A stretch of 64,000 nucleotides of DNA, taken from positions 395,001 through 459,000 of the forward strand of contig JARUPZ010000019.1 in assembly GCA_031213475.1 (NCBI GenBank), read 5' to 3'. The DNA comes from Nereocystis luetkeana (lineage: Eukaryota > Sar > Phaeophyceae > Laminariales > Laminariaceae). The translations under genes and the position numbers were made by a program. The notes beneath the pieces were generated by a model. It saw only the letters and a list, made by a program, of their open reading frames with translations, was not told the origin of the DNA and did no database searches. Within the stretch, counting starts at the first letter, position 1, and the number at the start of each line of letters is the position of its first letter. Below are positions 3,557 to 63,926 of the stretch, one piece after another.

Positions 3557-4821
3557 GCTAGCATGTATCAGCAGATGGCTACTTACTTTCGCCCGATAAT
3601 CTACACGCTACACGGCCGACTGCCCGCTTTCCGTGTCCCCTCGTGGCCGCGACGCAACGCAAGAAATTGCTAATGTACGTGTACCTGGTACAGCAGAAGA
3701 GGTGGCCCCTCTATAGGGCTGGTATGTAAGCGCCAGTCAACAATACCGGCATTATGTAGAGCGGCATCCGGCACGAATTCGCACAACGACTACACCGGTG
3801 AATCCCGTCTGCGCCAAGCGAATTCACAGGCGCTGCTTGTAACGGGCAGCCGGGGACTATAGAGAGGGACCACTACTGTACTACCATATGCCCCTGCGCC
3901 CCATGATCCTCTTATCCTTCCACGTCAGGCGTCGGAGTGAGAATTCCCTCGATAATCGCGTACATGTCGTAGAGCCTGCCACGGGATAAAAGAAACACAC
4001 GCGTGAGCAACCGATGAAAAAATATACAGGGGGAGTTATAGTCGTTAGAGACGCTCGGCGCGGCAGCAAGCACCAAGACCATCAAATTACTGTACTTCAG
4101 TACAGGCCCGCGAATGACGAATACACCTTGACGACAACACATCTACGGCTCGATTGTTTTTGGGGGGAGAAGCTTAAAAAGGAAATTGGATTTAAGACAT
4201 AGTTATCAGCGGTGAGCGTCACAACAAGACCCTACCTGGTCTACGGTAAAAAATTATAGCCCCCTCGTCACCAAGCAGGCTGAACAAAAAAACGCCTCGA
4301 CGGAAGAAAAGAAAACAACTTCAGTACGACATTATGATATATACGCCCCGCAGTATATGTATGTAGTCGTATATACATATATATCTGGTAAACCAGTAGG
4401 CAAAGGAACGGCACTAACGTGGTAGGTGGGAGGCAAACCACCAGCGAGTTTTTGCCCAGGGGGGGAGGGGGGGGGAAGTACGTACACCCGACGAAAAAAA
4501 CGCATGAAGAACAAACGAAAAAAAAATGATTACAAAAAAAAAAATCATGTACCTGCTTCTCAGTTTGTAAAACTGAGTCTCTATTTCGGTAATTGCAAAT
4601 CTGTCTGTCTGTCTGTCTGTCCGCATCCCTTATATTTTCGAACCTATATTCTTAATTTTAGTACAGGTTAGGTGTGGGCGTGAGGTCCCTTCTATAGCCG
4701 GTACCAGCAATATCGGTGTCCATTGAACGTTGTGCGCAGTGATGAATTTCGTTTTTTTCGACCACAAAGAAGAAAATTGACAGCAGCCGTCATCATTTTT
4801 TTCTCAAGCCCAAAAGCCTGA
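3557..4821. other. No gene recognised
   Basis: Mixed-composition DNA with a TACCTGGTA word at 3682-3690, a poly-G run near 4460 and a (GTCT)n microsatellite at 4602-4620. No frame here is long or protein-like enough to support. Confidence 0.4.
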
Positions 4822-5355
4822 GAATTAGAAAACAAGGAAAAACCTTCGTATGGGATACAAAAAGGTAGGATGAGCAGCAGCAGCAGACAGCGCAGCAGCA
4901 GGGAGAGAAGGAGATGGAAGGTGGCGATCCATCTCCTCCGACAGTCTCGCCACCTCTGCCCACCTCCGCCCCTCCTCGGCTGCCAGCGCCGCTAGTGCTG
5001 TACGCGTATCTGCTTCCGCGTGCGGCCGCTGTTGACGCTCCTCGGATAATGTTCCTGCCGTGTCAACTCGCTCCTCGGTTTCCATTGCCAATTTTCCCAC
5101 CTCGGCTAGACTCTCGGCCGATTGGCGAGCTTCGCTCTCAGCAGCATATTTGGCCACAGCCTCGTCGCGTGCACGGGCAGCCCCGCTATGACGTCACTCC
5201 AACGCACGGTAGTCGCGGCGCTCCGCTATGTTCTCGGCGCGCTTATCTCTCCCCGCTTCTCCTGTTGTTTTCCCCGTGCGGGCGAAGAAATCCTCGTCTA
5301 TTTTTTCAAAGCCTCTTCTTGTAGGCTGGTACAGGTCCTTGTTTTTTTTCGTGTG
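4822..5355 (-). pseudogene. Degenerate Ala/Glu/Arg-rich coiled-coil frame
   Basis: Not recognised as a named family. One minus-strand frame runs from about 5355 to the TAA at 4822 and is rich in A, E, R, K and D with almost no P or G until the tail. Segments such as RDKRAENIAERRDYRALE and LAALAAEEGRRWAEVARL have the heptad look of a long helix or coiled coil. The frame holds one internal TGA at about 5194-5196. The helix character continues unchanged on both sides, so the stop is either a recent mutation, a sequencing error, or the edge of a very short intron I cannot prove. The C-terminal part ends in an Ala-rich, then hydrophobic, stretch. A possible splice acceptor (polypyrimidine then CAG) lies near 5330. 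No neighbour suggests a function. Confidence 0.35.
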
Positions 5356-6002
5356 CCGTGTCGTGTCGTGTTTCCCATTGTATTTTGTATATAAAAAACT
5401 ACCAGGTACTATGTTTTGACGGGGTGGTACTCTTGACTCAAGTGTACGATCGGAGTTATTTTTGTTTGTCCGTGTGCGGCATACCACGAACTAGCTTTCT
5501 GTAGCCTCGATTCTTCGTATCAGTCGATGCGCTCTAGAACGGGGTACATATTGCCGTAAAAAACGCTGAAAATCACACCTATTGCTGTTTTTGAGATCAG
5601 CATCAAACGGAAAAACATTCCGGTTCATGAATTTGTTCAGAACATATGCTTTTATATGTCTGGGCACACTATGGACAGCCAATTCGTGACGTATCAGGAG
5701 TTAAAAGCGATCTAATGCTGACCTTCCGGTATACTATAGTCAAGTTGTTTTGGAGCCCCATGACAGTTCGGAATTGCAGAAAATTATTCCGTCTGTTGGT
5801 AGTTCCGTTTGAAAATTATTCATCATTTTCACCATGCCACCGATTTCTGGTCGATACGGACCTCACGCGCACTACTAACAGCAGTAGTACGTTCCAATGA
5901 TCGATATATTCGGTCGTGACAGATGATGTTCGTACGACGTATTCGACTCTTACAGACCTCATATCCTGAAACATACTAGACCACCAGGCAATATTTCGCC
6001 AT
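5356..6002. other. No gene recognised
   Basis: Contains a TACCAGGTA word at 5400-5408. I see no other repeat family member and no supported frame. Confidence 0.35.
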
Positions 6003-6200
6003 ATGATACATCCACCACACCGCACCATCATACCATACCACCAACATACCATATCACATACCGTGTTTTCCCATATGGTATATCAAACCGCACCGTCATA
6101 CCATACCAACATACGATATCACATACCGTGCCACACCGCACACCATGCCACACCTTACCGTACCACGTACCATACCATACATACCCATACTGCATCAACA
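6003..6200. repeat. ACCATACC-rich imperfect minisatellite
   Basis: The strand reads as variations of CACACCGCACCATCATACC and ATATCACATACCGTG. A block at about 6010-6065 recurs imperfectly at about 6090-6135. Confidence 0.6.
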
Positions 6201-6239
6201 CCACCCGAGGGGCTCAACCATAGGAGGACTGAACGAGTC

Positions 6240-6770
6240 TATTAATTGATACCATCATACTATTGTACCAACAAACACCACAAAAGTAAGTGCTCAAGAG
6301 CATGCCTTCGGGAGACAGAGCAGGAGGAGCGAGTATAAATACCATACTGCTGTACCAACACCACAAGTACGCAAGAGCATGCGAGCGCGCGACGAACGAT
6401 GACGGAGCGTCAGCTCTCTGACCGCATACTGCTGTTACAACCAACAACACCACAAGTACACACGAGCATGCCTTCCGGGCGACAGAGCAGGAGGAGCAAG
6501 CGCGCGACGAGCGATGGCAGAGAGTCCTCATCCCTCTGGCCGCAGAGCCATACGAGGACACAACAAGCGCATGCCCCGCGCAGAGCACTCGAGCACGAAC
6601 GAGCATAGATGCCATACTGCTGTTGTTGTACTAAGCTACTCGTACCACCCTGACCGAAAATAAAACACCCCTTTGAGACCGATATCAAACGGTGTTTCAA
6701 AGTGGTACCATACTGCTGTTGTACCAACGCCACACGTTGCACGAACGAGTATATAGATACCACATTGAGT
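6240..6770. repeat. Degenerate tandem repeat, 80-110 bp unit
   Basis: Four to five imperfect units contain ATACTGCTGT, ACCAACACCACA and AGAGCATGCCTTC(C)GGG, at about 6250, 6345, 6425 and 6705, with an intervening copy near 6610. Overlapping frames in it are repeat translations. Confidence 0.55.
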
Positions 6771-6829
6771 TTCGCAAAATGGTCTCCACAGCAGCGAGTA
6801 GCTAAAACATTTTTTTTTCTTGTGTCATA

Positions 6830-6985
6830 GGGTCAGTTGGCAAAACTCGATGAAAACAGACGAGTAGTCGGGAATGCTGAACCGTCTGGGCAATAAAAAT
6901 AATGCGGAGAAGGGACGACACACACATGTGACCACGGTTTATCCAGAAGCTGGAAAGTAAAAGAAAGATAACCCCCCCCCGAAAA
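6830..6985 (+). mobile_element. SINE-2 body fragment
   Basis: A headless, diverged stretch follows the SINE-2 body: GATGAAAACAGACGAG, GGGAATGCTGAACC, AATAAAAATAA, GAAGGGACGACAC and GTGACCACGGTTTATCCAG. It is missing the tRNA head. Confidence 0.6.
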
Positions 6986-7246
6986 AATACTCGATTGGCT
7001 TCTTTCTAAGTCAGGTATGTACCCCACTCAAGACTCGCAACTGAAACGATTTTCTATCCGACGTCGCAGCCGCAGCATCAACTTCAAGACGAAAAGTATT
7101 TCGATTTTGCGTTGCGATCCTCTGTGTGGTACAAACATCTTCTGCCTATTGGTCAGTCGAATGCTTTGTAACCGTCGTGCGTACAAGCGCAATATCAAGA
7201 AACCCCGCTGTAGACCACTGCCGCCGCCGTAGATCTATCACGTTCG

Positions 7247-25019
<17,773 letters not shown>

Positions 25020-25777: not shown

Positions 25778-26524
25778 TATATACCAGGTACCAGGTACCT
25801 GGTATGGTAACAACAACAGCATGGGTTGCCCCGAAAGCGCCGGCCCGTGTGTCCTCTCAGTAGGGGCATAAACCAACGTTGTTACAACCAACCACGATGA
25901 TATTGATGATGAACTTATGGAACTTATGGACTGATCTGTGCACAGATTATAAACTTTACGTACCAACGTACCAGGTAGGCCATGGTAGTAGTAGTGTAGT
26001 ACGTATATTCCTCGTTCGTGTCGTATCACGCAGACGAACAACGAGAGGCGGGAGACAGAGGGGTGTACATGCCGGGTCTTGCGACAAAGTGGCCTTTTTG
26101 CTCCGCTGCGGCGGTGTGGTCGTTTGATACTGCTGCTCGAGCGAGTTTTTGGTCAAGATCTACGTAGCTGCACCCCCCTCCCCCATCTTCAACATACCCA
26201 GAGTATTATAGTCCATACTGGTACTGCTGTATATATCGTGTGGCGACGTGGCGACCCGCCTGACACTTCGAGCGAGATGATGGAGACGCACACCCATCCT
26301 ACGAGTACTCCTCTCCTCCTCCTCCTCCTCATCATCAGAGGAGAGGGTTCGTGGGGGTTCGGCCCCGAAGTCAGACCCTCCGCGACTTTATTTTTCCAGA
26401 AAGAGGAAAATTCTGAAAAAAAAACTTCCACTATTATTATTTGTTGCTGCTGTTGGCCAGGTTGAGTGAGAGAGACCTCCAGGATCCTGAGCTGTGTGCT
26501 TGCTTTAGGACGCGAACTTTGATT

Positions 26525-29980: not shown

Positions 29981-30339
29981 CTTCCCTGTGCATAGATAAC
30001 TCAAAATTATTACCAGGTATAATACTTCCTGTTAATATACCAAAAACGGTCTAAAATTATCAACTACCGCTGACTACGTACCGAACAAATCCTGAACATA
30101 TACCTGTACTACAGCAGTATGAAAACACTCGTATGTGTATGTATAACGGGGGTACTCTATGTTATAGTTGAGAGGATATACCCGGGGCCATGTTAGTTCA
30201 GTTTGCACATTGGTTTTAGCTCGTGTGCGCTTTCTTCGTCTCGTGTATTTTGAGGCAGCCCAATTTTCGTTTTTTTTTTGTTTTTCGGATCTTCCTAGGG
30301 CTCCAGCACCTTTGTGTGACCACGGACTCCTTCGTCAGA

Positions 30340-30640: not shown

Positions 30641-30830
30641 GTACCTTATTATGTCTACTTCCCGCTGTGTGCTTTATCTACCTGGTACAGTAATACTCCA
30701 TTTATTTGTCATCCCGTCTCAAGATGCGCTCTTTACGTTATATTCTCGAATCCTCAACCGCACCCAAGCTCCATCCCCACGCCATCGGTGTGGGTCTGTC
30801 ACCCCCCCCCCCATGCTCACCCAAGAGGCA

Positions 30831-31152
30831 GTTAGTTACACATAGTACTCCCATTGCTGTCTCTGGAATTGCCTACCAGGTACACCGGAAATTAAATTAA
30901 CTCATTGAAGTTGTCATCCATTTGCAAGTCCGCCTCACAAGCGGTTCTTAGTTGGGTGCAGCTCGCCCTTCATGCGACTCGCCGGACACCTCACGGCGCT
31001 TCGCGCTTGGTGCGAGCAAATGTCTGTCTGGTCGATGAAAAAACCCGGCATGCTCCGTCCCGGCATTGTAGGGATGCGAGGGTCGATGGTCATACGACTA
31101 CGGCCATGCATGAGATCGAGCACATCTCTCCTATCGAGTACACCCCCCCCTG
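30831..31152 (+). repeat. Poly(C)-tailed repeat, longest copy
   Basis: Reference copy. It starts near CAAGAGGCAGTTAGTTACAC, passes CACCGGAAATTAAATTAACT, CGCCTCACAAGCGG, CGGCATGCTCCGTCCCGGC and ACGACTACGGCCATGCATG, and ends CTATCGAGTACA plus C-run. CGAGTAC or a near match occurs twice, 19 bp apart, just before the C-run. A TACCAGGTA word is inserted at 30874-30882 relative to the copy at 61960. Confidence 0.9.
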
Positions 31153-31428
31153 CTCTCCTTCTCGTTTCCTGGCGGTCCTAACTACTATTAATAAGTACCA
31201 GGTAAGCTGGAGTTTGAAGCGCGGCACCCTCCTCGAGGAAACAGAAGAAACGTCCAGAAGATCCAGATACGTACCTGGTACCACAATAGAGTATCGTAGA
31301 TAAAACATAAAAATAAGTAGACACACAATACATACGTAGAAGATAGATCAGACTTTGTGTGCATAGGTTTCCTTTGTGTACTACGGAGATTTCTTCTTCC
31401 AGGAATGTTTTTTGTTTTCATTGATCAA

Positions 31429-32460: not shown

Positions 32461-32908
32461 AATAATGAAGAAGGCTCTATCCGTCTCAAGGAGACTCACG
32501 GGCTCACGGGCTCACAGGGCTGTATACCAGCTACTACAACACCAGACCACTATCAATAGTATAGAACACACAGACTTGGGAAACTCTTCTACGTACTGTA
32601 CGATGTATTTCAGAGCAGTTTTGAACTGGAAGTCTACACAGCAAATTTATTAAAAAATAAATGTATAAACAGCAAACAGCTAGCTGCGAGATCTAGGATT
32701 TTGTCGACTCGTCATGTATCTTGTGTGCGATTCTTCGATCGCGCGTACTACGCGTTTTATATGTCCTCATCATGCAGGAGATACAGTAAGCAGTAGTCCG
32801 TATATATATGAGGAAGAAAAACTCTAAAACTAAAGCAAGCTGCAGAATTCCAGGAGTAGGTGTATCTACATAATAATATATACCAGGTATAAAAGAAAAA
32901 AACAACTA

Positions 32909-35299: not shown

Positions 35300-36700
35300 A
35301 TTTATTCATTTGTGACGTTGACTATTGCATTTTACCTTTTGGTTTCGTAGCATCCTGTCCAAAATACTACCTGGTATATAGAACTACATACTTAGATCAC
35401 AACCCCTGAGCGTGCTCGGTTGGTGCATCCCTGGCCTCTCAGAGCTCCCACTTCCAAACCGCCTCCTTTCATGACTTGCCGAACCTTTCCAGCAGTTCTT
35501 TGTTTTCTCGGTCATTTCTTCCTTTTTTCTTCTTTCGTTTCGTGTGCGTGCGTGTTCTCCGAGCACGGCATCGCGGGAGGACCCGGCACCGTCGCGGGTG
35601 CCAGCGGGTGCTGGCGGGTAGAGGGGGGGTTGCAAGGAGCGCGATCGCCGCTTTCGTGCCTAGGCGTCGCGTGCGCCTCGAGACACGAGGGATGCATGAA
35701 CGGGCTTTGTCTGGCTTCGATTTATGATTGTTGATAGAGTATGCACGAGTTTATAAAGGTCGTTCGGAAGGGCAAGATAATATTCAAGCGGTGCTTATTT
35801 TTGCGACCACGCTGAATTTGAAAAAGGGAGGTGTGCAGTTTGAACACCAACGTTGTCGAGTTGGCGAACGAAGGCCACGGTGAGCACCGGGCTTCACGCG
35901 GGGCGGGCGACGGGGCTGATAGTGGCAGAGAGTGATAAAAGCTTTACCCGGACCGAATCGGTAGCGAGGTGGTCGCGAGAGGGGCGGGCGGCGTACGAGG
36001 CTGAGAGAGAAGCTCTTCTGTGCGATTTTTTCTTTTCTTCTTTTCGACCGGGTGTAAGGTGTTCCAATCAGGCAGAAAAATATTACACGAGAGGGGGCGG
36101 GTTTTTTTTTTCCTTTCCGAGTTTTCGGTTTCATTTTCATTGTTTTTGCTGCTGTGCGGTGCTGTGCTTTCGCTTTCTTCGTACATACAGTACAGACATA
36201 GAGCATATCGAAAGAAGAAAATAAGTACAGGCAGTAGTACCCTACCTGGGGTGTATGTACGTACGTACGACATCCGCGACGCGAAGCGTATATGTGGCAT
36301 CCAAGCTGGCGTCGGAGCAGTTTTTTCCTGAAGCATGGCGGCGGGACTCTTGGCATTATCAAGTCGCCGGTTTGCAATTACGATCCTTGAAAACACTAAA
36401 CTCAATCGTGGACCTCTGTTCGCTTCGCATAATTTGATGTACTTTTTGTCTTCCTGAGCGAGCGTAGCGGGCGGCGTAGGCCGCCCGCGGAGCGAAGCGC
36501 CTTGTATTACCTATAGCACTGTGTCCCAACACATACGTACCGTTTCGATTACATATGAATACACAAGGGTTCCTTGTATTTAGGTACATAGTGGTACGAC
36601 GAGTCGAACATCATGTTCATGATATAAATTAGACCCACAAGCAGCGCGCGGGGGGTGTAGCACCGAGACAAAAGACAGAGTCCGCCACCAAGTAGAGAAG
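35300..36700. other. Unassigned
   Basis: Mixed DNA with no recognised repeat family. It has a GC-rich hairpin at 36466-36490 and scar-like words at 35370. Several frames of about 80-120 codons on both strands have no recognised domain. Confidence 0.3.
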
Positions 36701-38419: not shown

Positions 38420-38936
38420 TATTCAGGAGTAAGCGTACACCCGGACGCTGGTAGGATTCTATATTTTTCCGCCCAAACCTGTGTACGAACTTACAAGTAT
38501 TATTGCATTGTTTTCTGTGTGGGGCACACCTGGTATGCTCTATTCCATCGAGCCCGTGCCGCTTGACTTGCATCTGATATTCACAACAATAGCAGATACG
38601 TTAAATATACCGCGTTCCCACCGCTGCATATTAACTGCTTCCTTCGATGCAAGGCACACTTTTTTCTCACTCCTTTCTTGTTGAGGCATATTATCCTTGT
38701 ACTACTCCTACAGTACTTCTGCTGAAAAAAGGATCACATCTGTTTCCAAATAGTTTGTGTGAAGATACGTAGCCTAGGCATTTGTCTCCGGGAACGTGTA
38801 CCTGGTACGTACGTATTAACCGCAAGGCGCGCCGGTGGGCCACGTACTGTAGTAATGCTGATGTTGGACGTCCTAGCAACCTGGATGGAGTGCCTGAGTG
38901 GAGTCAGGGAAAGATCACTCAATTTTATTTATGCTG

Positions 38937-40310: not shown

Positions 40311-40707
40311 TCCACCACGGGATTGTAAAGTTTCGAGTCTAATGCTCCAGACTCAGCGATGCCTATGGTGCCGGGTCTGGAGTAACGCATTTGACTATCC
40401 TCTCTTTCTTTCTGATGGTGTTTTTTTTCACCAAGACAAACCGACCATGCTTGTACTTGATGTGCTGTCTGCTTGCCTTTGCGTCTGCGTCTTACGTTCT
40501 GCCGGTTGCCGGGAGAAGGAGCGAGTTACTGGTCCGTCCCCTTACGTAGACAGTCACATACACAGTGATTTCGATATTGGTCCTCCAATAATATATTTCC
40601 TTCCACGATCAAGCATGCATTCATGCATTTATTTCCGTTCCCGTTTAGGTTCCCCTTGGTTTCCATCTTTTGGAGGGATCAGCGCTGAAGCTCATGTTGC
40701 ATACCTG

Positions 40708-40710
40708 GTA

Positions 40711-40765: not shown

Positions 40766-40925
40766 TGCCTTCTGACAATGTGCAGGGCGTTATTCATTCA
40801 AAATGAAAAAACTGACAAAATTCGTCGAATACCACTAACTAACTTCATGGAACCAATTCTCCTTCCCTGCGTGTACTCACTTGCACCCCCACCAATACAT
40901 GCGGTTGTATATATATTACATACCT

Positions 40926-40927
<2 letters not shown>

Positions 40928-40957
<30 letters not shown>
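40928..40957. repeat. (TA)n microsatellite
   Basis: About fifteen TA units beginning within a TACCTGGTA word. Confidence 0.9.
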
Positions 40958-40959
<2 letters not shown>

Positions 40960-41604
40960 GAGTGTCTCACAGATGGAAACTCCAGTAAGAAATAATGGCT
41001 TTTTTAGCAAAAATCAATTCACATCGCACACTAACCCGCCCAATTTACGTGCATACCCGGTGTATATTATTCCCGGTAGTAGTATTTATTTTGTCCGGTG
41101 GCAAACAACCGCAGAATGATAATGCTGTAAATATTAATATTTTATTTCTTGTTCCCCGTGCGTTTCTTATTTCGGAGTCCTCAAGCTCATGCCACACACT
41201 GCAGCAGCAGCAGCAGCTGTCTGCTGATGACAAGGTTGGCGAAAATAAATAACCATAACAATACTAGTAGTGCAATAATACTATGCGGTGATATATCGGA
41301 TTCAAGTTGGGATGGAGCATGTACGATACATACTACACTGCTGTCAAAGGGCGAAATTAGTAATATCTAATGTTGAACTCGTAGTAGTAGTAACCGAACA
41401 GTGAATGGCTGACTTCTCGTCCCCTTGCGGTAGGTCGGCGCATCCCCCCTCTTTTAGACTATAATAATAACAATACACATTTAAATGTATCAGCATACAG
41501 ACATACATGCCTGGTACGTAGTAGATATATATTCTTAGAGATACATACACCCTACCAGGTATATGATAACCACTGAGTGAGCTAACAGTCAGCGCTAACT
41601 ATAT

Positions 41605-41690: not shown

Positions 41691-41797
41691 TCATGATCAA
41701 GGGTTACAACCCCTTTATTTAGTCAGCACTGCCCCTCACTGGTTAGGGTGTACCTCTAATAAATACTCCGAGTACCTGGTAGTGGATACGGTATATA

Positions 41798-41845
41798 AAA
41801 ATTTGTCCCCAAAACGGGGCTACGGTAGGTACTAAAACGGTCAAG
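41798..41845. mobile_element. TTAA-MITE, right half
   Basis: TTTGTCCCCAAAACGGGGCT followed by a degraded tip. Only one half of the hairpin is present. Confidence 0.6.
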
Positions 41846-41849
41846 TCCT

Positions 41850-42760: not shown

Positions 42761-42779
42761 ATGCCTCGAGTACCTTGGA

Positions 42780-45197: not shown

Positions 45198-45246
45198 GCA
45201 TGGTTTGCCCCCAAAACGGGACTGCAGTAGTAGTACTAAAAGGGTC
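45198..45246. mobile_element. TTAA-MITE, right half
   Basis: GGTTTGCCCCCAAAACGGGA, then CTGCAG and CTAAAAGGGTC. Half of a hairpin copy. Confidence 0.6.
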
Positions 45247-45354
45247 ATTCTCCGCCCAAAAAAGAACACACAGACAGAAAAGAAGATCATCAAAGAAACA
45301 ACACACCACCAGTTATAATAGCGTATATTTGCTGCTCTACTGCAGGCATTAGAA

Positions 45355-47521: not shown

Positions 47522-47561
47522 AAAATTACTAAAACTACAGTACATACATGCTTGATAATAC

Positions 47562-49495
47562 CAGGGTTTTTCGCGGGTCAGGTCAAACCTCACGGGTCGG
47601 GTCGGGTCGGGTTCTTAAACAATGTGGTTTGCGTGTGTCAGCACGAACTTCAGGCTGATGGGAGGCGGACGCGTCACGTGGGCGCCTTCAACAGGGAAAG
47701 AGGACCATAGGTGATGTCTATCGAGCTGTAATATAAAGCTGACAGAGTCCACTGGTGTTCCTTTGTTTTGGGGAAGGTCAGGAACACTAGGCCGCCATTC
47801 ATTTCTATGCTCTTTGCGAAATGAATAGATACACAGTATGATAGACAATTACCTGGTGTAAGATACTCCTTTCTGTTCATTTCTTTGGTTGCCTTCTTTT
47901 GAGTATCACACAGTAGCGTAATGAGTTGGCTCTGAGTAACAAATGCGGAGCATTTTCCCCGCAACAACTGTCATCGTTGTTGTGTGCATTTTTGGAATTA
48001 TGGCATGTAACGCAGAAGTAGACTAAGCAGTATTAGTTACCCTAACGAGGGGACGTATTGGAGATGATACTTGTAAGTAACCATCTCCAATACGGGTCAG
48101 CTGACCCGACCCGACCCGCAAAAAAATTTGAGGTGTGTTGACCTGCCCCGACCCGACCCGCGAGATTTTGAAATCCTCTTGACCCGACCCGACCCGACCC
48201 GCGAGATTTCAAAACCTCTCGACCCGACCCGACCTGACCCGTGAGATTTCAAAACCCTTTGACCCGACCCGACCCGAGCCGCGAGGTTTTAAACACTTCC
48301 TGACCCGACCCGACCCGACCCGACACCTTCCGATTGACCCGTGAGACACGGGTTTCATGCGGGTCGGGTCAACTGGACCCATGACATATCTCACGGGTCA
48401 ACGACGAAAGCTCACGGGTCCAAATATCTTAACGTTGGTACGTTGGTCGGTTGGATGGTCCTTGGTCCCTTGTCTTTTCCGAAAATGTCGTAGGTTTGTG
48501 TTCGGTTTTTTCATTTTTTGAATTGTTTTGGAGCATTGTGTGGTGCGGGGTGTGCGCTTCAAAAAATACCATGATGATCAGAAATCATGATGATCAGAAA
48601 GATGATGACATGGAGAAAGGCACACACCCGCACTCTGCCGGGCGGATACCTCCCGGCCCCTGGGTCGACCCTATAGCTCTGACCCGATGGCCCTTGCTGG
48701 CGCCCCGGCGAGCGACTTAGCTGTGCAGCCTCCAGCAGCAAGCACTGAAGCGGTGGATGTGACAGCGGGGGCCACGATCCGCGAGGATCCGGGGCCTGCT
48801 GCTGCTACTGCTGCTGCTGCCTTTTTTCATGTCTTGTCTTTTGGCTTCTTTGGTTATATGTCGCAGGTATTCCGTGTGTACGCACTCGTTTTATTGTTTA
48901 TTGCGTGGGTTCATACACTGCTATCATGTCTTGTCTTCATTGTTGCACCCTGCATGAGAGTGTGGCCGTTTTTTTCGTGGAAATGGATGGACGTGAACAT
49001 GAACACAATATATATACTACTGTACGGCTTCATTCGACCCGGGATTTGCGTGTGATTATTCTACACGCTATGATATGCTCTCGGAGGTCTACGTATCGGC
49101 ACGAGAGAAGCCTTTAGGCGGGGAACGGCGAGTATTTTTTGTTGTACAATGTCGAACCCGCGGGTCACAAAGGCAGCCTTTCGGCAGGTAGCTGCACACG
49201 TTAGCACACATACTGATCCGTGGGCCAGACCCGCGGGTCGGACGTGTGGGTCAGCCGGAAAAAAGTCGCGGGCCATGATGACCTGACCCGCAAATGACCC
49301 GTATCTCACGGGTCATGGCTCGACCCGACCCGTGACATTTTGAACACCTCCTGACCCGACCCGACCCGACCCGACCCGACCCGTGAGATTTCAAGACTCT
49401 TTGACCCGACCCGACCCGACCCGACCCGACCCGCGACATTTTGAAACCCCCCTGACCCGACCCGCGGGTCGGGTCATGACCCGCGAAAAGCCCTG
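47562..49495. mobile_element. hAT-type element 2
   Basis: Same tips as element 1 and a perfect 8-bp target duplication GATAATAC (47554-47561 and 49496-49503). It has CCCGA-rich subterminal arrays at 48100-48420 and 49200-49490 and the same interior as element 1 (frame 48687-49055). It is longer by one insert at about 47612-48093. No transposase is seen. Confidence 0.92.
47612..48093 (-). other. Gene-like insert inside hAT element 2
   Basis: This piece is absent from element 1 at the matching point. On the minus strand, two overlapping frames look protein-coding: 47967-47674 (VTQSQLITLLCDTQKKATKE...) and 47848-47615 (...SFPVEGAHVTRPPPISLKFV). A short intron could join them, since a GTAATT donor-like site at about 47853 and an ATAG acceptor-like site lie between. 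I do not recognise the protein. A perfect 12-bp inverted repeat (48055-48066 and 48082-48093) closes the right end. Confidence 0.5.
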
Positions 49496-49558
49496 GATAA
49501 TACAGCAGAGTGGGGAGGGAGGAGAAGGGCTCCCTCTACGCGACCACTCCGGATTTAG

Positions 49559-50850
49559 TATACTCGGAGTATCGAGTACCATATAGAATACCGAGAAATC
49601 GAACGCTTTCGAGCCGCGAGCAATGTCGGTACAACCCCCAAAAACCGTCAAACCGGCTGCTGCACAGGTGATATAGGGCGAGTTTTGACGTCGTGAAAAG
49701 CTGTTTTGGACCATCGTGGTTCTTACTGATATTAAAGTAGTAGTGGAGCTCGAGCAGGGTGCCAACAACAGCATCATACGATGCGAAACAACAGAAGGAG
49801 GAGCTGCAGCAGCAGCAGCGTCAAGCCGAGTGGTAAAAATCGACGGGGATCAAACGAAGCCGGCACGAGCAAACGTGAACCGACGGAAGATGATAAACGA
49901 ACCGCGCATACGCGTCATACATCCGCTCCTGCTAGGAAAGCCAACGTATTTCGCACCGTGTAGGTGGTTTGTGTTGTCTCACCACGCAGGTGCTGCAGGC
50001 AGGCTTCTTCCTTCCGCTGCTGCTGTATGCAGTTGAGTTGTCTTTGCTCGGGGCAAGGTCTTCGTGCCGAAACTCATCATCATCGCCACGGGCCACCAAC
50101 AACGTGGTGTAGCGAGCGTCGCTCCTCATCCTCTCTACCAAGGTATACGGGAGGTGAAATCGGTTGGTTAAATAGAAATTGCGGCGGGTTTTCGATACGT
50201 AGCGGCAAAGTGCGATCTCGACCAACAACGCGGCGGGACAAACAGATACCTTTTCGTGTCAAGCGTGCATGATTGTGTGTGTACAGCAGTGTCCAGCGGT
50301 AGAAGGAGATAGGGAGGATGATTTGGAAATTGGGTGTTGTTGCAGAGCTTATAGAGGAAGGTACTGCTTTGTTGTCTGCAGAAGTAGTCCACAGCGCGGC
50401 GTATGCAGTGTACAAAAGACGACAGAGAGGATTGCGTGAACCCCTCGGTAGCTCGAAAGACTCTGGCAGTATTTCGATGGAATCCGGGTGAAGCGACGGT
50501 AGATGACGAGGACCGGATGTTCAAAGGTTCCTTAAGTGAGGAACTACCAGGTAGGATGAAAAGTTTACTCGGTTGTTCGTTTTAGGAATAATAGCGTATA
50601 CAAATTCCGGTCGGGTGGCACGAACGATTTTTTTTTAAAGTGTTGTATCGGGCGACTTATTGAGCTCCGAATGTGAGGGGCTCAGGAACGTCTGGTGCAC
50701 CCCCACTGTGGGATGGCTCGTTGTTGCATGAAGGGAGCTTAAAAAAATTGTGAGTATGTGAGGTATATATATTTTTTAAACAATTTGGTATTAGAGGCAA
50801 TACTATGATGAAGTTATAAATTGGGCATCACGCTGTCTATATATAAATAA
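49559..50850. repeat. Duplicated 1.2-kb block, copy B
   Basis: Second copy of the 43433-44645 block, with a different stretch at about 50525-50700 that includes a TACCAGGTA word at 50546. It starts right after the tandem-array unit that follows hAT element 2. Confidence 0.85.
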
Positions 50851-50872: not shown

Positions 50873-51002
50873 TAATCCTTTTAGGACTGACTGCAGTCAC
50901 AGCAGTCAGTCCCGTTTTGGACAAACCACTCATTACATTCCAAGTAAGTATAGTTTGTCCCATACCTGGTATACGGGACTGTGACAGCAGTCCTGAAACC
51001 CT
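50873..51002. mobile_element. TTAA-MITE variant with scar word
   Basis: A copy enlarged in the left arm by GACTGCAGTCACAGCAGTC and with TACCTGGTA at 50963-50971 inside the right arm. Confidence 0.7.
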
Positions 51003-51854
51003 ACTATGCTCATCAACGTTGACGTCACAGTAGGTATACTGGTAAGTAAGCAAGATTCAAGGCTTACTGACGGAGCCAGAATACTCGCAGGAGATTCTCA
51101 ACTGCTGTCTGTCGTCGCGTAGACTGCAACTACCTGGTATGCTACAACAACTATTAATAACTGCAGCAGGCACTACTACATATTAATAGCACTGGTAGTA
51201 AAAAAATGTCGTATTATACTACGAAAATCATATTAATACGTACAGTAGTGGTGTCTATTTACTGCTACACGAGCGACGGTTTACTTCAATCATCGTCCTG
51301 TGACCCCTCTCCGCCCGTCGAGTTGTTCCGAGTTGTCTCGCCTCATCGTTTCTTATACCAGGTGCGTATATATGTGTGCGTTATACGTGTGGTCGTCCGG
51401 AGTTCGGTGCCTCTAATTTTATGGGAATATGGAGTGATTTCGTTCTACCGAAACTGAATGTTTCACTCGCGGTCATTTGTTTGCGCATCATGCACGCATC
51501 AACTGCAATTTGCAATAAATATCATGTATACCAGATACTTTTTACCAAGTACTGGTATCTCATAAAATTAATGATGCAACCCTTGTAACGGTTCGTCTGT
51601 GGTGTCTGAACAGGTGGTATATTATGGTACTGCGATGGTATGATCCTGTTTACACCACACATATATATACCAGGTATACAACATATATACCAGGTATATA
51701 GATCATGATATATACATATATACAGGTATACTCTCCGTCCTGGTGTCTTCAACCAACACCATGCCGCACCTCAACTCGGAATTCAACCGAGCAGGACGAA
51801 ACAATAATCAACAAGGCATGTACACGAATACGGAGTATATGATAATAAGATTAT

Positions 51855-52268: not shown

Positions 52269-53254
52269 GCGCGACTCGAGCATGGCCACTCAAGCATATG
52301 GTATGTGGCCAACCATGCGTCACAACGAAGCGCCGCCCAAGAACACACAAGCGTATGGCAGCACCGCGCTGAACTTTTTAACACATACCAGGTACATAGA
52401 CATCTATACTCGTGCTCTGCTGCTGATGATGTTGTTGCAGCGAATATGTTGGCTTTGGGTATTTACGCGTGATTATTTACGTACCTGGTATATATGCATG
52501 TATGTATGTAAATGGCACAACAGCTCTATACGAAGGCTATATATATCCACATCATTCATTATCCTTGCACGTTACGTGCAGCAATACTCGTCGTGCTATA
52601 TTACGCCGGCATCATATATACCAGGTATGTAATATACATGCCAGGTACACATTAATAGTGTATATCCTTTTTGTTGTACAGCAGTATACACAGACAGCAT
52701 ATATATTCGTACATAAAACATATACCAGGTACCTGGTATTATATATAGTCCTGCGACCACGGACTGCATTGAATTGTGAGTTAATGTGAGAACAACAACA
52801 TAATGCATACCCTGGTATATACACAGCAGGACTGGAGTATGATGCATACCTGGTATTTTCTACCAGGCACCAGGTACCAGGTATTTATTACGAATGATCT
52901 GACCAATCATAAAAGCCAACAAATATTTCAATCGAGAATTTCCCATACTTATATTATTATACTACCAGGTATGTATGTAGCGTGTACCAGGAACCCAGCC
53001 CTTTCTTCGAGTGAGTATCGTATCATATCTATTTTTACATACTGGGTACCAGGTACCAGTATGTAATATATACGGCATTATTAGTAATAATAGTACAACA
53101 AATTATAAACATTCCATAATACGCTGCTGTTGTGTGTTATACTATTAATACTTGCCGTCCACGAAGAAGCAGGTGCTCCTCTTCGGTGGTAATATCATCA
53201 AGACGCAGTAAAGTAGCGTATACCAGGTATATTATAGCGGTTGGCAACCAACTC

Positions 53255-53346: not shown

Positions 53347-53879
53347 AATAAATACTGTTTTGGTATCGGACGCGTTGTTCAAGGTATATATATATATGCA
53401 AGTCGCGATAATTGTTGTTGCTCGCATTACACTTGCTACCAGGTTTTGAACTACCACACTCTCGTTCCTCCCGGAGTCCGTTGAAAGTGTAAAGTGAGAG
53501 CGACGATCGATCGCCAAGGATGGCCACCCGTAAATAAAACATGTCCATTGTTGTACCTGAGATGGTATATCGATATGTCTACGTGTCATCGTGTTGTCAA
53601 CGACGACGACCCCGTGTTTTCTTGTTCCCTTACTATTAATATTATTAATAATGCTACCATTACCTTGTACCTGGTATATATATATGCATGATACGTGTGA
53701 GCCTGTCATCCTCATCCAGGATCATTCCTTGAAAATCAAGTATTAATAGTAGTCGTGTGTCTCCGAAGCATGGGTGCAATCAATGAATGGGTTTTTATTA
53801 TTATGGCTCAGAGTACAAAAAGTGTGTCCCGACCTTGATATAATAATGGTTTTCAGACGCGCCTCCTCCCGGTCTTACG

Positions 53880-56707: not shown

Positions 56708-57156
56708 TCATCCACTACTTATTACCAGGTATAACACTGCTTGTTGTGTAAAAAATTGGACGCTCAGGTCGATGTCTTCAGAGGAGTTGATTCGCCAAAA
56801 CCCCCCCCAGGAACGAGGGGTGCATTTCTGCTCGCACGCGATGGATGCAAGCATGCGATCCAAAACATCTCGCCGAATGGAAGTCTGTGGGGAGCCAGTG
56901 TCAAGAAGCGCCACGCAGCCAAAAGGTGCAAAAACACCAGCTCCGCTGCGAATCGCGATTTTGGTTGTAAAAGAGGCGTCATCGAGGGTACCTCGTAAAA
57001 AAGCAAAGCGAAAGAAAAACAGCGACAAGAAAAAACTTGTACTGACAAAAAAGCAAAAGGTCCTGCCGACGACACAATTTGTTAAGGTCTTAGTCCGTTG
57101 GGCTAAAGGTAAACGGTTAACCAATCAATCGCCTACCCAATCTAAGCCTCAGAACA
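56708..57156 (-). mobile_element. LTR-retroelement fossil with retropepsin fragment
   Basis: A minus-strand open stretch includes ALLDTGSPQTSI, the active-site region of a retropepsin-like aspartic protease, placed next to a 77-bp LTR (57080-57156) and a serine-tRNA primer site at 57062-57077. This suggests a remnant of a Ty3/gypsy-like or related LTR element whose LTR belongs to the mini-LTR family. Gag, reverse transcriptase and integrase are not seen, so it is broken. A host retropepsin-like protein is an alternative but less likely given the LTR. Confidence 0.6.
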
Positions 57157-57379: not shown

Positions 57380-57630
57380 ATCATACACTATAACTACTGT
57401 ATGTACCAGGTAGTAATTAATCGGTGGGTATCTGGCCTACGCAAGAAGTCGTACGGGATGGGGGCGACATGATCCTGGCCCCTTCAGCAGCTGGGCGCTC
57501 ACTCGCTCGCTCGCAGACGATTAATTGAAAACACTGGAGCTATATCACACTGTTTAGGTCGAAAATAACTCGGGGTCCGAAAGAGGTTGTTATACGATAT
57601 TCGTAACAATGTCAACATGGCATATAATAT

Positions 57631-57957
57631 GCCGGTCGCCCCGGTGGTTCAAGTGGTTAACCTCGAATTCTACCTGTGTTTGAGTCCTGGGTTCGAGCCC
57701 CAGGTGGGTCGGACTTTGACTTCATTTGCAAAAATAAAAAAGGATTCAATTGTTGAGAGCGCCTTGCAGCGTGGGTAGGCACAATCCGATGCGAGTCGAC
57801 GAGGGAAGAAAAGGCTGAAATCTTCTCGCGATAAAAATGAAGGCACGTACCGTAGCGGGAAGGGGGTAGAAGAGCCTGCTATGTGACCCCGGATCTGAGT
57901 TACGAGTTGGAAGGAGAGAGAGAAGAAGATGTGCGAAGATAATAAATGGGATGAGCA
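57631..57957 (+). mobile_element. SINE-1, full-length plus-strand copy
   Basis: Best-readable copy. The head starts GCCGGTCGCCCCGGTGG and the B box is GGGTTCGAGCCCC. The body runs through AGGATTCAATTGTTGAGAGC, TCGACGAGGGAAGAAAAGG and AAATCTTCTCGCGATAAAAA, and ends GATAATAAATGGGATGAG. No long A-tail remains, and it runs into (AT)n. Confidence 0.94.
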
Positions 57958-57999
57958 ATATATATATATATATATATGCGTAGACCGTACATCGAGTCT

Positions 58000-58265: not shown

Positions 58266-58611
58266 TTTTTTTTTTTTTTTTTCCCTCATCCCATTTATTA
58301 TCTTCGCACATCTTCTTCTCTCTCTCCTTCCAACTCGTAGCTCAGATCCGTGGTCACATAGCAGGCTCTTCTACCCCCTTCCCGCTACGGTACGTGCCTT
58401 CATTTTTATCGCGAGAAGATTTCAGCCTTTTCTTCCCTCGTCGACTCGCATTGAATTGTGCCTACCCACCACGCTGCAAGGCGCTCTCAACAATTGAATC
58501 CTTTTTTATTTTTGCAAATAAAGTCAAAGTCCGACCCACCTGGGGCTCGAACCCAGGACTCAAACACAAGTAGAATTCGAGGTTAACCACTTGAACCACC
58601 GGGGCGACCGG
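58266..58611 (-). mobile_element. SINE-1, full-length copy
   Basis: Minus orientation with a T-run tail at 58266-58282 and an intact head ending CCGG at 58611. Confidence 0.94.
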
Positions 58612-58818
58612 CATATATATACTTACTCACAGAGATTGATATCTTATCTTGATGATTCCCACTTCCTGGCTCTCAGAGAGTTCTGAGAACGAGGGGATTT
58701 TATGTAAATTATTTGTGTGGCGCGTTTCATCAGAAACACGCCTCCTCGACTATAGAGGGAGATGGGATCATGAATACCATGACAATATGTTTCTGAGTGA
58801 TCAGCGTTGAAGCTACTA

Positions 58819-59816: not shown

Positions 59817-59930
59817 TTACAGGGGACCATAGTTAATAGGACCAAATATTGTTAGTAAAAATGGTTAAATATATACCGGTAGGTTTTTATGTTCACCATC
59901 ATAGGTCCTGTTAACTACGGTCCCCCGTAA
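59817..59930. mobile_element. TA-MITE with TACCGGTA
   Basis: A full copy with TACCGGTA at 59874-59881, shared with the 16774 copy. The right flank is TATTAATA. Confidence 0.88.
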
Positions 59931-60243
59931 TATTAATACCAATATGTACCAGGTACCTGATATGTATTATTTTACCGTGGTACATGATTATGACGTCCGG
60001 CCTTCGGCCTCAAAACAGTCTGCTCCTCTTCCTGTTTTTTCCGTGTTTTTGTGTTTTTCCGTTGTCCTTCTGATGATTCTTTTTTATTAATAGGATTATA
60101 TGTCACACAGAGTACCTGATATTTTAGATACATACCCTGGTATACTATGTGTTGGCCTCCTGAGCCGCGCATCTATAGGCTTCGTCCCAAAACCATATTT
60201 GCGGGGGGTAAATATTCTGTCACCCGCCCCTTCTTATTAATAG

Positions 60244-60420: not shown

Positions 60421-60625
60421 GAAAGGAGAGACACCCTGCGCGATTATTACCCGTCTGTGTATATGTATGTGTGTGCGAGGCGCTCTCCTTTCAGACTCGC
60501 TTTCTACACGTAGAAAGCGGTCATCGATTCCTTCCACACTAAATACCAGGTATATACAACACGTGCTTGCTACCAGCTGATCAGTGATTCTCACTATGTA
60601 CAACACGTGTGTGTTCTCCACATTA

Positions 60626-60723: not shown

Positions 60724-61499
60724 ACCGTTCTTGCTACCCGTCGACAACACGTACCTGCCACCACCAACTAATCTATACCAGTACCTGGTAGTATAGAGCC
60801 GCAACAAAAGAGTAGCGGTATGACATTTGATACCTGGTAATATATATACCAGGTATAATATATATATAGATATATATACATTTGTGCACCACGGAGATGG
60901 ATGGTCGTTTTTTTGGATGACTATATTCTGAAACTCGCCCCGAAAATTCTTTTACTCTTCTTTCATTTTTCTTCCAATATATAGTCTTTAGATCAGATAC
61001 CTGGTACCATGTGATATAAGACACCAACAACAGCTATTCAATATTAATAGTTGAGATTGATGTGGGCGGACTCTTTGTGCCTTATACTCGTACTCTCCGT
61101 GGCCACACCGGGCCATGCGTCGGACTAACGACCTGCTAAAATTAATCCAAGACGTGAGAAAATATACACAACAATAATAGTATACTGCTACATGTGATAC
61201 GCATGTTGAATGAAGCGAATCCAAATCATCATAATCATCGATCAAACAAACGAAGAACAAGTAAGTATTCGTGTATGTTCGTGTTACTTTGAATGTTGCA
61301 GTCGTAGGCTAGCTTCTCATCACCCGGAGTGTGCTGCAGAATGCTCACGTGATAAAAAATATTGTGGAATAATGTGTCTTTTCCCTCTCCCTTGTGGGAA
61401 CCTTGTTGGCCTAAAAACATGAAACCCCTCCCTAGACAAAGTGGAAAGGTCTGAGCTCCCTATCCCTACAGCCACGAAGGACATGATGAGTTCACCCCC

Positions 61500-61565: not shown

Positions 61566-61609
61566 CCCTCCTCTACCCCCCTTCTCTTCCTTCAATCCAT
61601 TCGACGCTG

Positions 61610-61835: not shown

Positions 61836-61949
61836 CCCTTTTTTGTTTTGTTTTGGCGGTCGCCCACGGCTGGTCGTCAAGTTAGATCATTTGTGCGAGG
61901 TAAAGAACCTTTACTCCGCACAATTGGGAATGATCGTACTACGTAGTGT

Positions 61950-62239
61950 TCAAGGTAACGCACCCAAGAGGCAGTTACGTAGTACTCCCATTGCTATCTC
62001 TGGAAAGGCCTTCACCGGAAATTAAATTAACTCATTGAAGCTTTTATCCATATATATCCAAGTCCGCCTCACAAGCGGTTCTTAGTAGGATGCAGCTCAC
62101 CCTTCATGCGACTCGATGGACACCTCACGGCGCCTCGCGCTTGGTGCAAGCAACGTCCACCTGGTCGGTCAAAACCCGACATGCTCCGTCCCGGCATTGT
62201 AGGGATGAGAGGGTCTATGGTCATACGACTACGACCATG
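61950..62239 (+). repeat. Poly(C)-tailed repeat, left part of split copy
   Basis: Runs from CACCCAAGAGGCAGTTACG to CATACGACTACGACCATG, where a LINE copy begins. The repeat resumes at 63031 with ACCATGCATGAGATCGAG and ends in a C-run at 63070-63087. Confidence 0.92.
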
Positions 62240-63030
62240 TGTGTGTGTGTTCTTCACATTAAACCGTTCTTTCTACCCGTCGACATCCAGCACAACCAGT
62301 GTCCGTGCCGATTCTTCAATCCTAGAAGAGATACAAGTTATGTGGTCACAAAGCTACGCCACAGAGATACTACGTTGCCACGTGTGCAGTGTGCACTGCA
62401 TTGGGCAATGCAAAGCCATGTCATCATACTAGATACGACAGGCACGACATACGCAATCTATCAAATAGTGAAACGAAAAGAAACAATCAAAGAGAAAACA
62501 AAAACAAGGTAGACAAATCGAAAGAGAAAAAGAAGAAAAATGAAAGCAAAATCTAAGAGAAACAATCTGTCGTGCCCCCCCCCCGCAGGCGAGGTGGCCA
62601 ACACTTGAAAAAGAACGAGCTGGAGAAAAGAAAGAAAATAAAATAAAATAAGAAAAAACACCACTGCTTGTAAACATAGTAAGACAAGAACCAAGGAAAA
62701 AAGTAAACAGGAAAAATAACAAAGGGGAAATAACAGGCAGACCAAAGCCCAAAGCACCTTCCAGGTGGCGGCAGCAGCTTGTGGTACGAGTAGTATAGCC
62801 AGGTTCTCCCTGCTAATCCGCCTGGTACCTTGCTACCCAGACTGCCGTCTCCGCCCTGCGTTCGTCAACTATGCCCAGCCCCTTGGCGTCAGACAATACG
62901 AAACGAGCAGAGCAGGTTCGTCTTCCAACCACGCCACACGGCTCCTTCAGTACGGCTTATCAATCAGAAAAGGAAGAGGAAGAGAAAAAATAATATGAAA
63001 ATCACGGAGAGTCAGCGCAAGAAAGAAAAA
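62240..63030 (-). mobile_element. LINE 3' end nested in poly(C) repeat
   Basis: Minus orientation, about 790 bp. The (AC)n tail is at 62238-62250 (GTGTGTGTGT on plus), then the 3' UTR, then the last ORF2 codons (complement near 62800-62880). It is flanked by ACCATG on both sides (62234-62239, 63031-63036), a probable 6-bp target duplication. Confidence 0.9.
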
Positions 63031-63360
63031 ACCATGCATGAGATCGAGTACATCTCTCCTATCGAGTACACCCCCCCCCCCCCCCCCTCGCCCAGGATGC
63101 GTCGTCAATGGTCAAATGACTAAGGCAAGCAACAAACGAGTACGCCCCCCCCGCCCCCTCCCTCCCCCTTCCTCCACCTCCCCCCCATCCTCCCCCGTCC
63201 CCCGTCCCCACGTCCCCCTCTCTACACTCCCCCCGGTCCCCCCCCCTTCCCCTCCCCTCCCCGTCCCTCCCTTCTCCCCCCCCCTCTCCCCTTCCCTCCC
63301 CCCCCCCCCCCTCGACTGCGACCATGCATGATATCGAGCATACTCCCCCCTCCCTTCCCC
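63031..63360 (+). repeat. Poly(C) repeat right part and C-rich tract
   Basis: Resumed end of the split copy, C-run, companion block (GTCGTCAATGGTCAAATGAC), then about 200 bp of almost pure C/T, and near 63320 another ACCATGCATGATATCGAGCA end fragment. Confidence 0.85.
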
Positions 63361-63926
63361 CCTCCTCCACCCGCTTACATACTATTAATACCAGCCGGTG
63401 TAACCCAAGCAAACTTTTTTTGTGAGGTAAGTTAACGCTAAGACAACGACATCAACAACACGAACAAAGAATATAGTGTGATTCATACAGTACAAATGGT
63501 ATCGCCACCAAAAACAAGCACAACAGCACCAAACACCCACAAACAAAGAAGTGATTGATGATGAGTGGTATTCCACGATGCTACTATTATAGATAAAAGA
63601 GATATACTAATTTCTGCTGTAGTATGATATATAACAACACATATAATATCATACCAGGTACTGGTATGTATTATAGGACAGAAGTACTCGTAGATGAACT
63701 CAGATATATATAAGGTATAGGTCGACCGGCAGACCGGTATACGTGCCGCGGAAAAAGTGTACCTGGTACAACATAATATTATGTCGGGATGTCTCCACTT
63801 CTCTCCAGAATTCCGTTCTCCCGAGATACCTCGTAACATGCTCTGTACATATGCTACATACCAGGTACACTCCAACGGTAAATGACTGTATGTGTACCGC
63901 AGTGAGGAGGAGGAGAATAGCCTCCC

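Follow-up and report, generated by a model that had tools for sequence, protein, structure and literature searches.

A recurrent TACCWGGTA word in a kelp contig as the probable excision footprint of a TA-targeting transposon

Introduction

Why should one nine-base palindromic word recur dozens of times in a short piece of a brown algal genome? The question is raised by a 64,000-base stretch of Nereocystis luetkeana (contig JARUPZ010000019.1, positions 395,001 to 459,000; hereafter the window), for which a first-pass annotation had reported roughly 50–60 copies of TACCWGGTA (W being A or T, i.e. TACCTGGTA or TACCAGGTA), against about 0.5 expected at random, and had read the word as the scar of a transposon that is not present intact. 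The analyses described below make it likely that these words were left by the excision of a DNA transposon of Tc1/mariner type that targets TA and is cut with a 5-nucleotide (nt) overhang.

Abundance and composition of the word

Exact matching identified 58 copies of TACCWGGTA in the window, in agreement with the earlier estimate, and all 15 example coordinates given in the first-pass annotation were real sites to within 4 bases. In 100 dinucleotide-preserving shuffles of the window the word averaged 0.39 copies and never exceeded 2, which bears out the random expectation. Markov models of orders 1–4, each simulated 30 times, gave means of 0.5–3.8. An order-5 model already has hexamers of the word built in; it averaged 20 copies and peaked at 27, well under 58. 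The real count thus exceeded all of the shuffled and Markov controls that had been proposed, as run within the window.

All 58 copies had A or T as the centre base and none had C or G; on the + strand, 34 copies read CCAGG and 24 CCTGG (P 0.24 for the A versus T difference). Among the 16 possible TA-XY-W-Y'X'-TA words, CC alone was prominent; GG came next (n=7, i.e. TA-GG-W-CC-TA), and all seven GG-type words lie in copies of a single repeat element. After masking of microsatellites, TACCWGGTA ranked first for enrichment among 336 quasi-palindromic TA-x-TA families (56 versus 0.78 expected). CCWGG sites in the window were flanked by TA on both sides in 58 cases, on one side in 33 and on neither in 78. 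The sites are listed below as putative scars, with strand given as '.' throughout; rows naming no further evidence rest on the exact word match and the shuffle comparison.

3682..3690 (.), putative scar TACCTGGTA
5400..5408 (.), putative scar TACCAGGTA
13264..13272 (.), putative scar TACCTGGTA
16567..16575 (.), putative scar TACCAGGTA
18310..18318 (.), putative scar TACCAGGTA
18898..18906 (.), putative scar TACCAGGTA in inverted-repeat element copy; paralog alignment
18931..18939 (.), putative scar TACCAGGTA, same element copy as 18898; paralog alignment
19078..19086 (.), putative scar TACCTGGTA
19149..19157 (.), putative scar TACCTGGTA
20369..20377 (.), putative scar TACCAGGTA
20734..20742 (.), putative scar TACCAGGTA
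21998..22006 (.), putative scar TACCTGGTA
23373..23381 (.), putative scar TACCTGGTA
24325..24333 (.), putative scar TACCAGGTA
24649..24657 (.), putative scar TACCAGGTA
25782..25804 (.), triple stack TA-CCAGG-TA-CCAGG-TA-CCTGG-TA; words at 25782, 25789 and 25796
25969..25977 (.), putative scar TACCAGGTA
30011..30019 (.), putative scar TACCAGGTA
30679..30687 (.), putative scar TACCTGGTA
30874..30882 (.), putative scar TACCAGGTA in second repeat family; paralog alignment
31196..31204 (.), putative scar TACCAGGTA
31272..31280 (.), putative scar TACCTGGTA
32881..32889 (.), putative scar TACCAGGTA
35368..35376 (.), putative scar TACCTGGTA
38799..38807 (.), putative scar TACCTGGTA
40702..40710 (.), putative scar TACCTGGTA
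40921..40929 (.), putative scar TACCTGGTA
41553..41561 (.), putative scar TACCAGGTA
41773..41781 (.), putative scar TACCTGGTA
50545..50553 (.), putative scar TACCAGGTA
50963..50971 (.), putative scar TACCTGGTA
51131..51139 (.), putative scar TACCTGGTA
51668..51676 (.), putative scar TACCAGGTA
51688..51696 (.), putative scar TACCAGGTA
52386..52394 (.), putative scar TACCAGGTA
52482..52490 (.), putative scar TACCTGGTA
52619..52627 (.), putative scar TACCAGGTA
52723..52738 (.), double stack TA-CCAGG-TA-CCTGG-TA; words at 52723 and 52730
52847..52855 (.), putative scar TACCTGGTA
52861..52883 (.), stack TACCAGG-CA-CCAGG-TA-CCAGG-TA, one TA reading CA; intact word at 52875
52963..52971 (.), putative scar TACCAGGTA
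53047..53061 (.), full plus trimmed putative scar, stack TA-CCAGG-TA-CCAG-TA
53221..53229 (.), putative scar TACCAGGTA
53668..53676 (.), putative scar TACCTGGTA
56723..56731 (.), putative scar TACCAGGTA
57404..57412 (.), putative scar TACCAGGTA
59947..59955 (.), putative scar TACCAGGTA
60544..60552 (.), putative scar TACCAGGTA
60776..60790 (.), trimmed plus full putative scar, stack TA-CCAG-TA-CCTGG-TA; full word at 60782
60831..60839 (.), putative scar TACCTGGTA
60847..60855 (.), putative scar TACCAGGTA
60998..61006 (.), putative scar TACCTGGTA
63652..63666 (.), full plus trimmed putative scar, stack TA-CCAGG-TA-CTGG-TA
63760..63768 (.), putative scar TACCTGGTA
63859..63867 (.), putative scar TACCAGGTA

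Comparison with sister copies of repeats

All 58 sites with 150 bases on each side were aligned to the rest of the window, and matches spanning the site were found for nine words. Six of these (19149, 40921, 51668, 51688, 59947 and 60847) were set aside, their matches being AT-rich or off-repeat and some having the word on both sides. The three words with usable sister copies (18898, 18931 and 30874) were each 7 bp longer than their sisters. At 18898, which carries TTAAATACCAGGTAGGACC where sisters read e.g. TTAAATAGGACC, the 7 bp were absent from 10 of 10 other aligned copies and the site was TA in eight and CA in two. At 18931, which carries AACCTACCAGGTACATATTT, six of the ten other copies had a 7-bp gap, four of these reading TA as in AACCTATATATTT; of the remaining four, one had a 6-bp gap and three had other words between the TAs (CCGG twice, CTTG once). 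At 30874, both of two sister copies had the 7-bp gap, with TT rather than TA at the site. The empty TA sites predicted by the first-pass annotation are therefore present at 18898 and 18931, in paralogous repeat copies within the window. Because the three testable words are 7-bp insertions relative to sister copies, these alignments argue that the word consists of CCWGG and a duplicated TA, rather than being a functional motif.

A catalogue compiled independently of the word contained 46 paralog length differences of 4–10 bp, binned by position and length, of which 13 were TA-x-TA in the longer copy. Eight of these rows had TA in the short copy, with CTG, CCGG, CCAGG, TTAA or CCAAGG inserted; as CCAGG supplied three rows from two sites and CCGG came from two sister copies, they represent about six events. 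The short copy read TT in two of the other five rows (one being the CCAGG of 30874), TG in two and GG in one.

The two words at 18898 and 18931 lie in a single element copy (18870–19010; 11-copy alignment) that carries, in addition to both CCAGG scars, one TTAA scar. The element is a diverged inverted repeat of ~115–120 bp (TATTACGGGGGACCATAG...CTATGGTCCCCCGTAATA) with ten further copies (e.g. 11420, 15934, 32902 and 58814), and its copy at 19368–19490 contains inserted TTAGGG telomere-like repeats. Interstitial TTAGGG repeats are a weak pointer to a stramenopile host.

The words were clustered, with a variance/mean ratio of 3.4 versus 1.07 in 2-kb bins. Two gaps, both picked after viewing the sites, had no copies where 4.9 (5409–13263) and 7.0 (41782–50544) were expected by TA count; they contain a GTPase gene and two hAT-like elements. 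The first-pass annotation stated that no word falls in a GTPase exon or in the well-preserved copies of a short interspersed nuclear element (SINE) and a hAT element. The absence is uninformative for the GTPase stretch (7700–10200), since 0.96 words were expected there, and for a ~340-bp dispersed repeat that is a candidate SINE, whose copies hold no scar where about two were expected. For repeats in general the statement would be too wide, since 18898, 18931 and 30874 lie in repeat copies and are the informative sites.

Stacking, flanks, trimming and decay

Stacks with shared TAs were found at 25782 (three words), 52723 (two words) and 52861 (where one TA reads CA); 53 of the 58 words had no TA in common with another intact word. 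Flanking preferences were examined by reading flanks outward and symmetrising them, with 109 of 116 flanks retained after removal of seven that run into another scar. The first outward base was A in 5.5% (background 19.6%) and the second was C in 6.4% (background 20.4%), whilst TA occurred at flank offsets 0, 2 and 5 in 25–29% versus 9–11%, i.e. a 2.3–2.9-fold increase. AT content was 67.7% versus 55.5% over 8 bases and 59.9% versus 54.5% at positions 9–14. In 5000 draws of 58 random TAs, no draw reached such extreme values for any of the five base and TA measures or for 8-base AT content. Microsatellite TAs were excluded from this background and not from the scars; an unmasked background gave similar base and TA frequencies. 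AT-rich symmetric target flanks are typical of Tc1/mariner elements, and such a preference was observed for TACCWGGTA.

Shortened forms were unevenly represented. TA-CCAG-TA (n=13 versus 2.2–3.6 expected) and TA-CCA-TA (n=24 versus 10.8–11.9) were enriched, as compared to TA-CCTG-TA (n=4 versus 2.2–3.3) and TA-CCT-TA (n=3 versus 5.0–6.1). Three of the 13 CCAG words (53054, 60776 and 63659) share a TA with a full scar, and those at 37794 and 38372 are in sister repeats and may be one event. If the footprint is the overhang of one end, trimming should leave the outer part of the tip, and the element tip probably reads CCAGG; of the two tips offered previously (i.e. CCAGG or CCTGG), the trimmed forms favour the first and not the second. 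Mariner tips often start with YYAGRT, which CCAGG(T) would fit. Single-change variants of the word numbered 41 versus 13.9 expected, which we interpret as slow decay at a rough 6% per position.

Proposed excision mechanism

The excision-scar reading of the first-pass annotation is supported in outline by the 7-bp insertions, the W-only centre, the stacking, the flank preference and the trimmed derivatives. A mechanism that would produce these features starts from a cut-and-paste DNA transposon whose inverted repeats have the inward tip CCAGG and which would insert at TA and duplicate it. On excision, its transposase would cut the transferred strand right at the element's terminus but the opposite strand 5 nt further in, and each flank would retain a 5-nt 3' overhang, CCAGG. 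Two such overhangs would pair via CC/GG (4 of 5 positions) around a central A:A mismatch, and repair of this mismatch to A or T would seal TA-CC(A/T)GG-TA with a net gain of 7 bp; such a mismatch would permit only A or T in the centre, as observed. Trimmed overhangs would yield CCAG or CCA, and new insertions would choose preferred TAs, including those of old scars, to produce stacks.

Candidates for the source element were sought in the window. Pairs of TA-CCWGG located 60–15000 bp apart had a best match of 21/30, at the level of the AT-rich background, so that no CCWGG-tipped element was found there, consistent with the earlier view that the source is not intact in this stretch. The 33 one-sided TACCWGG words listed for the window had no convincing shared extension. 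The words TACCAGGG...CGCGGGTC (46071 and 47559) were rejected as ends of the source element, being ends of hAT-like elements that happen to follow TAC.

Other insertions between TAs

A second word, TATTAATA (i.e. TA-TTAA-TA), occurred 25 times versus 0.76 (order 2) or 4.6 (order 3) expected, and 24 times versus 0.42 after masking. At 18959, its 6 bp were absent from 10 of 10 other aligned copies, seven of which read TA. In the flanks of TATTAATA, the second outward base was T in 32 of 50 and the third was A in 28 of 50; this taste differs from that of TACCWGGTA, so a different element is likely, and TATTAATA is probably the scar of a second transposon. Other TA-flanked differences were as follows.

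12176, 18959, 19016, 31186, 51152, 53143 and 63383, example sites of TATTAATA
18959..18966 (.), TATTAATA, probable second scar type (TA-TTAA-TA); paralog insertion
16831..16838 (.), TACCGGTA; same site in the copy at 59874, 6-bp gap in other copies
59874..59881 (.), TACCGGTA, sister copy of 16831
50136..50145 (.), TACCAAGGTA (CCAAGG), clean 8-bp TA insertion versus copy 43421–44380, 96.3% identical
13463..13469 (.), TACTGTA, Sleeping Beauty form; 5-bp TA insertion versus two close sister copies
19445..19452 (.), TACAAGTA, probable 6-bp insertion at the hot-spot TA of the element family

The word TACCGGTA may be a scar minus its central base or a separate footprint. Words of the form TA-C(A/T)G-TA numbered 25 window-wide versus 8.6–11.3 expected, with one clean paralog case (13463). 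TACGTA was present 54 times window-wide versus 18–20 expected, and the paralog pair 37823/38401 has a 4-bp difference at TACGTA that could fit a TA-CG-TA (2-nt) footprint.

Comparison with known footprints

In the cited passages of the sources, Tc1/mariner footprints are given as 2–4 bp and the ZB element is described as preferring palindromic AT-repeat targets (PMC7913693), the pogo-type element Passer leaves 0–4 bp (PMC9976928), Stowaway and Osmar5 leave fragments of 1–4 bp (PMC1925063) and ISY100 is cut two nt inside (PMC2170065). The Sleeping Beauty footprint is given as CAG (PMC8151067) or, in another review, as TAG(T/A)CTA (PMC2874221). A repeat survey of Ectocarpus reports numerous Mariner-Tc1 copies, and its main text does not use the term 'footprint' (PMC12477816). 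No paper on a 5-nt or 7-bp mariner footprint came up in a literature search; a search for TACCAGGTA or TACCTGGTA with 'transpos' returned no title naming such scars, two of the titles concerning Drosophila transposable elements.

By analogy, the word would work like a Tc1/mariner excision footprint. Shared features with e.g. Sleeping Beauty are a TA target and its duplication (seen at 18898 and 18931, and ambiguous at 30874 where sisters read TT), a palindromic footprint with an A/T centre, an AT-rich target and trimmed variants; a TA-CTG-TA insertion is seen at 13463. In contrast to Tc1/mariner, the dominant footprint is 5 bp between TAs (58 sites) rather than 2–4, with minor 3- and 4-bp forms, and scars reach a density of ~0.9 per kb in a window where no element was found; the word is not classed as the product of a Tc1/mariner member because of this length. 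As in Stowaway miniature inverted-repeat transposable elements and Osmar5, putative short inverted-repeat fragments lie between TAs and insertion would recur at a TA already holding a footprint; unlike the described 1–4-bp fragments, which derive from either end and vary between sites, the word is a stereotyped self-pairing 5-nt unit (PMC1925063). The second scar type shares TTAA with piggyBac, but piggyBac is described as targeting TTAA and leaving no footprint (PMC8151067), whereas TTAATA was added at a TA at 18959. Unlike hAT insertions, with their 8-bp target duplication, the words duplicate TA only, and hAT-like elements with CAGGG tips in the window have no intact TACCWGGTA at their ends.

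Weighing of the excision reading and its alternatives

Several observations count against excision with a 5-nt overhang. Only three of 58 words, in two repeat families, could be tested against paralogs, and one of these (30874) has TT in its sisters. Fifty-eight scars alongside no element is a lopsided record, for which excision must have been very frequent or the element must have been lost afterwards, and the model accommodates the clustering only by invoking local hopping or regional bias. The left flank of a scar had no clear correlation with its right flank, CCAAGG at 50136 is no simple product of the model, and a 5-nt overhang is beyond the 2–4 bp reported for Tc1/mariner in the cited part of PMC7913693.

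This last difficulty would be avoided by an ordinary 3-nt overhang with the tip CCA, in which CCA and TGG are filled in and joined with the loss of one base, giving CCA+GG or CC+TGG. Such joining yields the same word and W-only centre, fits the known 2–4-nt range and is consistent with the enrichment of TA-CCA-TA (24 versus 10.8–11.9) and the single untrimmed join, TACCATGGTA, at 29579. It would require the loss of exactly one base nearly always, given 58 CCWGG, one CCATGG and three CCGG, and CCA and TGG overhangs cannot pair whereas 5-nt CCAGG overhangs match each other at 4 of 5 positions and lead straight to the word. As CCAG (13 versus 2.2–3.6) would also be an unnatural product of a 3-nt tip, we consider this alternative unlikely.

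Programmed removal of elements from the sequenced DNA, comparable to that of ciliate internal eliminated sequences, would account for 58 scars without an element in 64 kb and for the presence of several different palindromic TA footprints next to one another. Against this, sister repeats have empty TAs and two footprint types are present in one copy only, which ordinary hopping explains, and ciliate internal eliminated sequences leave a single TA. Programmed removal is accordingly judged very improbable.

A dispersed functional palindrome under selection, i.e. a binding site or an iterated palindrome like HIP1 (highly iterated palindrome), would match a palindromic, strongly over-represented word with a fixed centre composition. 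The word was a 7-bp insertion and not a set of substitutions at all three testable sites, and it occurs in TA-sharing stacks, in trimmed and decayed forms and adjoining other TA-x-TA insertions. On the strength of the 7-bp insertions in the paralog alignments this explanation was rejected, and its chances appear slighter still than those of programmed removal.

Spread of a TACCAGG heptamer microsatellite by slippage has period-7 tandem arrays in public contigs (24 of 106 + strand pattern loci, counting 7-base steps only) and the three stacks of the window in its favour, but is dismissed for the window as hardly credible because most words are outside arrays (53 of 58 having no TA common to another intact word), A and T centres are mixed inside stacks (TACCAGGTACCAGGTACCTGGTA) and slippage cannot place a single unit at an unrelated TA.

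Implications of the proposed excision footprints

If excision with a 5-nt overhang is correct, scars by themselves suffice to characterise a transposon by its tip, its overhang length and its target taste, footprints reported for TA-targeting transposases would extend from 2–4 to 5 nt, and self-pairing tips may be favoured as they make excision repairable. The window would hold a dense and datable transposition record of about one event per 1.1 kb with a rough decay of 6% per position. Motif discovery would also have reason for caution, since strong over-representation does not by itself make a palindrome a binding site.

A wider proposal, which we offer tentatively as a possibility with the odds against it, is that there is a lineage of TA-targeting transposases cutting 4 to 6 nt inside self-complementary or near-self-complementary tips (CC-W-GG, TT-AA, CC-WW-GG and C-WW-G). 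Chromosome overhangs of this kind might anneal to each other and allow the host to seal excision cleanly, and several highly mobile families might result. The scars (58 + 25 sites per 64 kb for the two commonest words) might then make up a visible share of the genome, with the elements rare or gone, and might by themselves reveal the cut geometry, tip and target preference of unseen elements.

Scans of public contigs

The exact triple stack had no matches in viral_contigs. A looser stack pattern matched at least 119 stretches in genome_contigs and 20 in viral_contigs; TACCWGGTA was counted in 139 loci from these scans and six were viewed closely. The matches were mostly tandem repeats, with no recognised relative among the matches listed. 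The stacked pattern was on the + strand in 106 of 140 loci, with periods of 7 in 24, 12 in 17, 13 in 15 and 14 in 8, and in 61 of these 106 it was inside an open frame of at least 150 codons. Many dispersed words were present in only two of the 139 loci, L120 (23 clusters) and L019 (11 clusters). Both were rejected as scarred relatives, L120 being a collagen-like GLPG repeat gene and L019 lying in a contig filled with another repeat, TTACCTG. The L019 contig (NYTS01000027.1), labelled Deltaproteobacteria, has 53 CAGGTAAA words in 8 kb as well as many TTACCTG words, and is highly repetitive and possibly misassigned. Loci L015, L032, L060, L003, L007, L027 and others are from bacterial metagenome genomes (e.g. 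JAAYTK01, PQAI01 and JAUYJH01), which carry several short arrays of GTACCWGGTAC-like words at periods of 7, 12 or 13. Two viral scans were made with repeats of the window; one produced an 18-mer match without wider similarity and the other was empty. The pattern of an open frame resembling a long interspersed nuclear element matched three stretches in viral_contigs, none of which was confirmed.

Other features of the window

Rfam and tRNA scans of the window gave no matches, and a comparison of ten open frames to Pfam gave one sub-threshold match to DUF3021. The two hAT-like elements (46074–47521 and 47562–49495) have CAGGG-type ends and GACCC-rich repeats; the second has an exact 8-bp target duplication (GATAATAC) and the first is flanked by GAAATTAC/AAAATTAC. 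Their hAT-like naming is based on tips and duplication only. Six similar copies of the ~340-bp dispersed repeat, perhaps a young SINE, are located at 25429–25777, 28335–28674, 29641–29980, 33278–33621, 57627–57958 and 58269–58616. On the minus strand, 7776–10149 contains parts of a gene for a P-loop GTPase (GAPNVGKSS; MDTPGVLSRPDGDRNEMEALTLASMQHL; LRKRFPRRPWLDVVSKADL), apparently split by introns, which we take to be probably NOG1-like. The open frame at 26548–27306 has 220 relatives in a protein collection, with one labelled as a Parasphingorhabdus metagenome-assembled genome among the matches listed.

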